Shown here: in pieces, positions 62,631-64,000 of the stretch
Layout of the letters: each line of letters starts with the position of its first letter
How positions within the stretch are numbered: the first letter of the stretch is position 1
Assembly (NCBI RefSeq): GCF_020859565.1
Contig: NZ_JAJHUO010000019.1
Span: 124,001-188,000, forward strand
Length of the DNA stretch: 64,000 nt
Direction: 5' to 3'
Source: Saccharothrix luteola
Lineage (GTDB): Bacteria > Actinomycetota > Actinomycetes > Mycobacteriales > Pseudonocardiaceae
Notes under the pieces: model-generated
Database searches by the model: none
Told to the model about the DNA's origin: nothing
The model's input: only the letters and a program-made list of their open reading frames with translations
Made by a program: the position numbers and the translations under genes

Positions 62631-64000
62631 TCAGCCGAACGCCACCAGGTACGTGGCCACCACCGCGAGCAGGTACACCGGGTAGCCGACGCGGGAGGCC
62701 CGGGCGAGCCGGCGTTCCGCGTCGTCGCGCCGCACCGACGCCAGCCGCTTGCGGAGCATGGCGACGAGCACGCACCCGGCGGCCAGCAGGATGAACGCGT
62801 AGTAGCCCCACTCCAGCGCGACCGTGTAGCTGACCGACGGCAGTTGCGACGTCACGTTGTTCAGCAGCACGGCCGTGCTCAGGATCGCCGTGACGCCCAT
62901 CGACACGGGTGCGGCGCCGTCGGTGGCCTTGAAGAACAGCGACAGGTACGTGACGGAGATCAGCAGCAGCAGCGGCAGCAGGTTCTTCAGCAGGAACGGC
63001 AGCGTGTCGCGGACGATCTCCACCTCGCCCGTGTACTGGCTGTAGTAGATGCCCCCGGCGGCGCCGACCGCGGAGCCGTCGCCGAGAGCGTCGCTGCTGC
63101 CGACCGTCCGCTGGAAGAAGCGGGCCGACGTGGCCAGCCAGTTCGGGATGTCGTTGATCGTCGCCTCCGCGTCCGCGCCGCTGCGCAGGTGGTGCTCGGG
63201 CGGCACGTCGAGGATCTCCTTGTCGGTCACGTACACGACCTCGTCGGCGGTCCGGGTCCGGTTCTGCAGGACGACTTCGAGGCGCTGGTGGTCGAACGGG
63301 AAGCTGCGGAACTCGAAGCCGTTCTTGAACCGGTCGGCCACCCGGTACAGCCGGTAGGTGCCGTCCGCGCCGGTGACGTCGCGCAGCGGCTCGCCCAGCT
63401 CCAGGCCCGGCTCGACCGCGTTGATGAAGTGCACGTCCGCCGCCGTGTGCGGGCCGGTGTACTTGAGCCACAGGAAGAAGTCCATGAAGTACGTGCCGTC
63501 GCGGGTGTCGAGGTCGCGCAGCTCGTTGATGTTGATGCCGGTGGCCACGACCTGGCGGCGGGTGAGGTACCGGTCCTCGCCGATCGCGATCACCGTGCCG
63601 TCGGCGAGGCCTGCGCCCAACGCCTCGGGCGTCGGCGGCTCGTACACCGTCAGCTGCACGGGCGCGGACACCAGTCGCTCGCCGTCGCTGGTCACGAACG
63701 ACACCGGCATCTGCGCCGAGCCGTTGGCGGTGAAGTACAGCGGGCCGAGCAGCGCCGGGAACGCGTTCTTCTTGTCCTTCAACGCGGCGAGGCTGTCGCG
63801 CAGCCGCTCGCGGTCGTCGGCGAGGGTCGTCTCGTCGAGGCCGATGCGGTGGGCGGTGACGACGTGCAGACCGACGTTGAGCGCCTCCCGGGCGGTGGCG
63901 GCGTGCCAGCGCGGGCGTTCGCCGTACCGCCGCTGGTAGTCCTCGGCCCAGGCCAGCGCGGGGCCGGACAGCGAGTCGTGCGCCATCGGGGTCGCCAGGT
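62631..64000 (-). CDS. Pentameric ligand-gated ion channel homologue with upstream PBP domain (partial)
   Basis: The frame is open to the right edge; the start is outside the window (an ATG at 63986 is internal). Reading from the N-terminal side, residues up to about 140 (LAWAEDYQRRYGERPRWHAA; FVTSDGERLVSA) look like the end of a type I periplasmic-binding domain. Next comes a Cys-loop-receptor beta-sandwich (TYFMDFFLWLKYTG; the signature FPFDHQ replaces the Cys-loop, as in prokaryotic channels). Four membrane helices follow: M1 LLPLLLLISVTYLSLFF, M2 MGVTAILSTAVLLNNVTSQL, M3 WGYYAFILLAAGCVLVAML and M4 VGYPVYLLAVVATYLVAF. It should form a membrane pentamer gated by an external ligand. Confidence 0.82.
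   Translation of the reverse strand, partial: LATPMAHDSLSGPALAWAEDYQRRYGERPRWHAATAREALNVGLHVVTAHRIGLDETTLADDRERLRDSLAALKDKKNAFPALLGPLYFTANGSAQMPVSFVTSDGERLVSAPVQLTVYEPPTPEALGAGLADGTVIAIGEDRYLTRRQVVATGININELRDLDTRDGTYFMDFFLWLKYTGPHTAADVHFINAVEPGLELGEPLRDVTGADGTYRLYRVADRFKNGFEFRSFPFDHQRLEVVLQNRTRTADEVVYVTDKEILDVPPEHHLRSGADAEATINDIPNWLATSARFFQRTVGSSDALGDGSAVGAAGGIYYSQYTGEVEIVRDTLPFLLKNLLPLLLLISVTYLSLFFKATDGAAPVSMGVTAILSTAVLLNNVTSQLPSVSYTVALEWGYYAFILLAAGCVLVAMLRKRLASVRRDDAERRLARASRVGYPVYLLAVVATYLVAFG

Follow-up and report, generated by a model that had tools for sequence, protein, structure and literature searches.

A Saccharothrix gene that joins a TPR-like N-terminus, a membrane helix and a periplasmic-binding-protein domain to a pentameric ligand-gated ion channel homolog

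The window analyzed here, a stretch of 64,000 nucleotides from the soil actinobacterium Saccharothrix luteola (G000:C11:124001-188000), ends in a minus-strand reading frame, 62631-64000, that is open up to the last position. In the flanking DNA (L001, where a position plus 58999 gives the window numbering), the frame runs onward without a stop to a GTG codon at L001:6157 (Table 1). The ATG at 63986, taken from the list of open reading frames within the window, was dropped as a start codon because the conserved protein starts 390 residues upstream of it. Sequence and structure model give one order of domains: a TPR-like domain (residues 1-112), a hydrophobic helix that we call TM0 (about 119-140), a periplasmic-binding-protein (PBP) domain (146-505), the extracellular domain (ECD, about 515-716) of a pentameric ligand-gated ion channel (pLGIC) and its transmembrane helices (717-841). 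The initial annotation had described the end of a PBP type I domain joined to a complete channel with an FPFD loop and four helices, and matches above the cut-offs to Peripla_BP_6 and Neur_chan_memb bear this out; the full PBP fold that it named as support for its claim is indeed present upstream in frame, in a gene that starts at 65156. The TPR-like domain and TM0 were beyond its view, outside the window.

Table 1. Coordinates of the gene, its parts and related genes; locus identifiers precede positions given in their own numbering.
Feature	Position	Strand	Basis or remark
Full gene, 841 aa	62631-65156 (window numbering)	minus	GTG start
In-window gene part, residues 387-841 and stop	62631..64000	minus	rest beyond the window, to 65156
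C-terminal PBP part, residues 387-505	63642..64000	minus	Pfam and structural match to 4gnr
pLGIC extracellular beta-sandwich, residues ~515-716	63009..63614	minus	in 14/14 aligned sequences
Pro-loop FPFD, residues 619-622	63291..63302	minus	invariant in 14/14
Transmembrane channel domain M1-M4, residues 717-841	62634..63008	minus	PF02932, model helices, hydropathy
Pore helix M2, residues 749-770	62847..62912	minus	aligned to GABA-A and GLIC-GlyR chimera chains
Upstream small acidic ORF, 88 aa	L001:6230-6496 = 65229-65495 (window numbering)	minus	
Short PBP-less pLGICs, other members of the window's phylum	L067:3754-4833, L069:4523-5581, L068:1160-2299		
G822 single frame, 1304 aa: PBP-I, pLGIC, C-terminal PBP-II	L065:1922-5836	minus	SBP_bac_1 E 4e-34
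Broken second copy, Streptomyces sp. G44	L060:1426-3277	minus	no match to transmembrane part
Decayed remnant of PBP-pLGIC gene, G152	L034:1114-1747		internal parts missing
Three Azospirillum plasmid PBP-ECD-MscS genes	L071:3890-6958, L072:3629-6949, L073:3851-6934		

The whole domain plan is retained at 40-90% identity across 13 other loci (Pseudonocardiaceae, one Streptomyces, a strain classified as Nocardia and one Dormiibacter MAG), which together with the window's sequence make up the 14-sequence alignment used throughout (L015 and L016 were left out as incomplete). The TPR-like, PBP, ECD and transmembrane parts have dN/dS ratios of 0.18-0.56 in five pairs of genes, four of which include the window gene, so that all four domains are under purifying selection as judged from these ratios; with a plan retained in 13 loci, the fusion is therefore not a chance event. 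The ratios are 0.32-0.56 in the PBP and 0.18-0.45 in the ECD and transmembrane part. The contig looks genuine, and the neighbors of the gene are syntenic with those in the Saccharothrix loci; the contamination listed for the source genome is 8.84. An AF2 model of the protein (one chain) is of moderate confidence (pLDDT 75.7, pTM 0.62), with parts around TM0 below 50; all structure models are of single chains, and the AF2 model displays no pentamer. Pfam matches under the cut-off to Mur_ligase_C, Frag1 and SUa-2TM were disregarded.

In the AF2 model, residues 11-82 fold into five helices, arranged as helical hairpins, with a block pLDDT of 84-92 for residues 11-90. TPR profiles stayed under the Pfam cut-off in the window protein, as they did each time in a second scan of five proteins or N-termini, and the P-E and P..P positions of the domain are invariant in the 13 aligned N-termini. 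A profile built from this domain has a single match in the genome of the window (150 of 322 candidates scored) and also matches other proteins in two genomes considered further below, G822 and G920; the PBP-pLGIC of G822 itself is absent among the matches. The TPR-like module heads several unrelated proteins in these genomes, some of them with hydrophobic segments (L094, L096, L098 and L099 in G822; L097 in G920).

TM0, recognized both by hydropathy and in the model, is directly preceded by basic residues in all 14 aligned sequences and followed in all of them by a linker to the PBP of 5-10 residues, counted from the best 19-residue hydrophobic window. Its dN/dS ratio was 0.47-1.25 in the five pairs tested, and thus its hydrophobicity is kept while its sequence is not. 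In the proteins with a pLGIC pore, TM0 is unlikely to be a cleavable signal peptide, because about 112 residues stand before it and basic residues lie just ahead of it. The C-terminus of a pLGIC is outside the membrane, and the M3-M4 loop of the window protein is basic. Taken together with the length of the N-terminus and the basic residues ahead of TM0, this indicates that the TPR-like domain is probably inside and the PBP and ECD outside. Since the ECD of a pLGIC is about 60 angstrom high and the linker has only 5-10 residues, the PBP is unlikely to float atop the ECD; more likely, it lies beside it, with one end anchored at the membrane and the other joined to the ECD's first strand.

Residues 146-505 are a complete LivJ-type PBP type I domain. 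The match to Peripla_BP_6 (PF13458) covers residues 146-491 (E 5.5e-49, 168.1 bits, cut-off 31.7), and the PBP model aligns with LivJ (4gnr) over 342 residues (VIA Z 40.0, rmsd 2.6). We take S79, T102 and E226 of LivJ to be ligand-contact positions, the glutamate at 226 holding the amino group. The S79 position is S or T in 14/14 aligned sequences and the T102 position in 12/14; the E226 position is acidic in 3/14, in a loop where the alignment is uncertain. The domain may therefore bind another ligand or none, and our guess is a small carboxylate other than Leu, Ile or Val. The branched-chain amino-acid binding proteins LivJ and LivK, which have the same fold (Z about 40), are separate secreted proteins serving ABC importers, whereas the PBP of the window protein is fused in frame, unlike the substrate-binding proteins of ABC transporters, and no ABC genes were found among the four neighbors scanned.

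The model of the ECD and transmembrane part (pLDDT 66.7) aligns with GluCl (4tnv_A) over 286 residues (Z 17.3, rmsd 3.6) and, among the 50 rows listed, with GluCl, GlyR, GABA-A and GLIC chains over 275-294 residues (Z 16.6-17.3). P620 of the Pro-loop and R716 at the end of the ECD are invariant in all 14 aligned sequences. Peripla_BP_6 and Neur_chan_memb, two of the three profiles named in the initial annotation, match the window protein, and for the third, the LBD profile Neur_chan_LBD (PF02931), no Pfam match is listed; weak matches to it under the cut-off were obtained for L011 and G920. A search of the window's own genome with PF02931 gave no match and is uninformative because 14 controls gave none either. 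There is no cysteine in residues 510-716 of the translation. The protein is a Pro-loop receptor and not a Cys-loop receptor in the strict disulphide sense, so the earlier term "Cys-loop-type channel" is a loose one.

The Neur_chan_memb (PF02932) match covers residues 727-798 (E 4.5e-8, 34.1 bits, cut-off 28.1), and the corresponding match falls below the cut-off in L012 and G920. In a prime numbering that we assigned from the alignment, M2 has S2', T6', L9' and a proline at 0', with no acid at -1' or -2'. It aligns well with anion-type channels, and the proline at 0' clouds the selectivity call. The residue at 0' is Pro in 11 of the 14 aligned sequences, Arg in two and a gap in one. Part of the text of Jaiteh et al. 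(PMC4795631) gives a conservation of 79% for Arg or Lys at 0' among pLGICs, which hence is not universal; nevertheless, with proline in its place in 11/14, conduction should not be taken for granted. The pore of the G822 protein reads E-1' R0' (by eye), and ion selectivity may therefore differ within the family.

The gene has no obvious operon partner, in agreement with the initial annotation. In a comparison of ORFs of at least 70 aa within about 6 kb per side, its neighbors recurred in L002, L003, L004 and L010 only, all of them from Saccharothrix. Elsewhere, two Dormiibacter loci have a common neighborhood, and single genes are common to the pairs L008-L014, L009-L013, L006-L014 and L014-L016. 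With neighbors that recur in four Saccharothrix loci and few pairs elsewhere, a separate subunit is not evident. The neighbors in L001 are APH-family, dienelactone-hydrolase-like, GH64-ricin and DUF2332 genes, of which the APH-family gene lies downstream and is convergent. The small acidic ORF lies upstream of the gene in five Saccharothrix-type loci (the window's, L002, L003, L004 and L010), farther off in L004 and L010; among 15 loci tested for a conserved partner, a 76-aa query from its second ATG had no match in the remaining 11.

The genome scan found 15 loci, five in Saccharothrix, two in Umezawaea, one each in Lentzea, Solihabitans, Actinokineospora, "Nocardia" NRRL S-836, another member of the Pseudonocardiaceae and Streptomyces G44, and two in Dormiibacter MAGs. 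A full-length match is present in 13 of 200 genomes of the family, the window's own included, and in six of its 46 genera; the other family matches listed extend over the PBP region and no further than its flanks, except for a fragmentary copy in G152. The match in G006 contains one stop codon, but when this contig is read from L013, the frame is open beyond the first few residues. Broken copies occur in Actinokineospora, as a second copy in Streptomyces G44 and in a Dormiibacter MAG, where an assembly error is possible. Given these copies and the 187 of 200 family genomes without a full-length match, the gene is dispensable.

Within the phylum, five of 396 genomes, again including the window's own, match the LGIC profile, and three of the other four (G557, G499 and G409) encode proteins of 352-379 aa without a PBP. 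In the phylum of Dormiibacter, four of 251 genomes match: one with an intact gene, one with a gene in pieces (G598), G695 and G822. The G695 gene lies on a short contig, with a transposase-like ORF across its PBP part (by eye). In the class of G822, the matches number 13 of 249, namely G822, G920 and 11 others. G920 encodes an 861-aa protein with the TPR-like, TM0, PBP and pLGIC parts, and the C-terminal PBP-II of the G822 protein, a combination seen in this one genome, should be outside the membrane. Nine of the 11 others were read and have quite different N-terminal domains. In the survey as a whole, L077, L084 and G458 were left out of the sequences read. Open frames of 626-645 aa in L076, L078-L083, L085 and L086 encode pLGICs with another extracellular N-terminal part, which is DeCLIC-like by eye.

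A tree of 30 rows with long branches was rooted at the midpoint (L028 and L031 were left out). G695 was labeled as PBP although the PBP end alone was readable, and "PPC" is a by-eye label for eight pLGICs with other N-termini. All 19 PBP-labeled rows are on the same side of a branch with a support of 91/93. They nest in the order G822, G920, G695, Dormiibacter, Streptomyces and Pseudonocardiaceae; this order is unsure, as are the placements of G822, G920, G695 and L068 on their long branches. Our guess is that G822 and G920 belong to the Chloroflexota, and the pattern suggests that the gene may have been assembled in a Chloroflexota-like genome and then transferred to actinobacteria.

Relatives were also identified on plasmids. 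A tblastn search with the LGIC part against 72,556 plasmid records gave matches in nine, all of them from Azospirillum (best E 1e-14), which span residues 33-151 of 347 and thus the front of the ECD. When the full-length protein served as the query, matches in nine Azospirillum records began at residue 139-143 and ended at 645. Three of the proteins were read and consist of a membrane helix (by eye), a PBP, an ECD and an MscS-type C-terminus, with matches to MS_channel_2nd (E 4.2e-18 and 9.7e-16) in the two that were scanned. Comparison by hhalign of profiles with three rows (Azospirillum) and 14 rows (window family) gave a probability of 99.4 for ECD against ECD, over 143 columns at the front of about 206 ECD positions, and of 0.5 for the MscS part against the transmembrane domain of the window family. 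Thus, the Azospirillum proteins (e.g., WP_012976639.1) have a homologous PBP and ECD front after a membrane helix, as in the window protein, but differ from it in the MscS-type pore, the altered Pro-loop and the lack of a long N-terminal domain. Where the window family has FPFD, they carry RAYG, PPYG and PPYG, with the acid changed to Gly in 3/3 and the proline kept in 2/3, as might be expected if the job of the loop is to couple to a four-helix pore. In the relative from Azospirillum B510, the first membrane helix comes after no more than about 14 residues (by eye). Genes for an ATP-binding cassette protein and a HlyD-type secretion protein come after the B510 gene. The gene also adjoins a VCBS-domain gene, and its product is annotated as an ABC substrate-binding protein.

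We propose that the window protein is a self-contained receptor-channel, a homopentamer that is gated when a ligand closes the membrane-tethered PBP and thereby shifts the ECD; we give this reading about an even chance of being correct. The suggestion in the initial annotation that ligand capture by a nutrient-sensor fold gates the channel fits this anatomy. Five copies would probably assemble via the pLGIC part, each with a clamshell PBP outside that TM0 fixes to the membrane at its start and that continues at its end into the ECD's first strand. A small ligand would shut the clamshell, and because the PBP would be held at both ends, its closure could pull or twist the ECD. By way of the Pro-loop and the region of R716, the movement would then reach the M2 pore and open or close it. 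The TPR-like domain, in the cytoplasm at the base of TM0, may bind a partner or modulate the gating.

Alternatively, the PBP might merely capture and concentrate ligand for an ordinary site between the ECDs and not drive the gating, as in the ligand-concentration proposal made for bacterial pLGICs in a passage of Tasneem et al. (PMC549065). Mean column identity is higher in the ECD (0.78) than in the PBP (0.69), as would suit such a role, but the short linker from TM0 to the PBP in 14/14 sequences would be odd for a mere delivery domain and a homologous PBP-ECD pair is present on an MscS-type pore, so we consider this unlikely. We find it more improbable still that the protein is mainly a transmembrane receptor, in which TM0 shifts as the PBP closes and a signal reaches the TPR-like domain, while the channel serves as an oligomerization scaffold or a leak. 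The invariant positions in the TPR-like domain (13/13 N-termini) and the altered 0' residue (11/14) would agree with this, but the sequence of TM0 drifts, conservation is highest in the pore domain (0.81), the B510 relative retains a pore behind a very short N-terminus and the matches to the TPR-like profile do not include the PBP-pLGIC of G822. Least probable in our view is a PBP that has become a relic, or that serves as a structural cap, on a channel that senses protons, calcium or lipid like other bacterial pLGICs, since the loss of the canonical amino-acid-binding acid in most sequences and the quite different N-terminal domains of nine pLGICs in the class of G822 are outweighed by a complete PBP with a LivJ fold in the model, constraint on it in all five pairs and hydroxyls kept at two LivJ ligand positions.

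The receptor-channel reading can be widened to the Azospirillum proteins. One hypothesis, which we hold with a little less than even confidence, is that a membrane-tethered PBP and the pLGIC-type beta-sandwich form a portable sensor cassette carried on two unrelated pores, those of pLGICs and of MscS, that nutrient-induced closure of the PBP against its tether gates both, and that in the lineage of the window gene the cytoplasmic TPR-like domain couples this event to the cell interior.

The core of the window protein, an ECD followed by four transmembrane helices, is that of GLIC and ELIC, whose chains in the structure comparison have 306-313 residues and which are not known to have a PBP, TM0 or cytoplasmic N-terminal domain. 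The joining of extracellular PBP folds to a channel has an analogy in the ionotropic glutamate receptors, the pore of which is different, unrelated and tetrameric. The fusion of a PBP-I domain to a pLGIC is itself already known since 2004, when it was described in the alpha-proteobacteria Magnetospirillum magnetotacticum and Bradyrhizobium japonicum, and the link to PBPs that the initial annotation mentioned from comparative genomics is thus real; in the passages concerned, the PBP-I is likewise N-terminal to the ligand-binding domain and four-helix channel (Tasneem et al., 2004; PMC549065). The bacterial proteins are described there as having an N-terminal signal peptide followed by extra domains, whereas the window protein has a TPR-like domain of about 112 residues and a membrane helix ahead of the PBP. 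The later analysis by Jaiteh et al. (PMC4795631) states, in the part concerned, that terminal parts were discarded and that a study of domain architectures could be highly informative.

A precedent for an accessory domain is DeCLIC, the sole pLGIC with an N-terminal domain and a structure that is named in the relevant passages of papers from 2022 and 2025 (PMC9897478, PMC12664993). According to these passages, this bacterial pLGIC has a large N-terminal domain that lies outside the membrane next to the ECD, as we propose for the PBP of the window protein, and that affects the gating kinetics. The domain consists of two jelly-roll lobes in a calcium-sensitive channel, in place of a PBP, and the passages on DeCLIC make no mention of a TM0 or TPR-like domain, both of which are present in the window protein.

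The matches listed from the open-license PMC literature included no paper on a PBP-pLGIC in the Actinomycetota, a TPR-pLGIC or a PBP-ECD-MscS fusion, and no functional study of a PBP-pLGIC. Against these matches, the new elements are the N-terminus with a TPR-like domain and TM0, its spread over the Pseudonocardiaceae, a Streptomyces, Dormiibacter and G920, the protein that combines PBP-I, pLGIC and PBP-II, and the swap to an MscS-type pore.

Bacterial pLGICs serve as structural models for nerve receptors, and the stimulus of many of them is unknown. Since the ligands of a built-in PBP can be screened on the isolated domain, the question of the natural agonist becomes testable. The family is well suited to testing what a bacterial pLGIC responds to. 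Furthermore, the attachment of the PBP at two ends predicts a gating route that is absent from the literature passages on PBP-pLGICs and DeCLIC. The Azospirillum relatives, finally, would show a Cys-loop-type ECD driving a wholly different pore, which bears on the modularity of the receptor fold.
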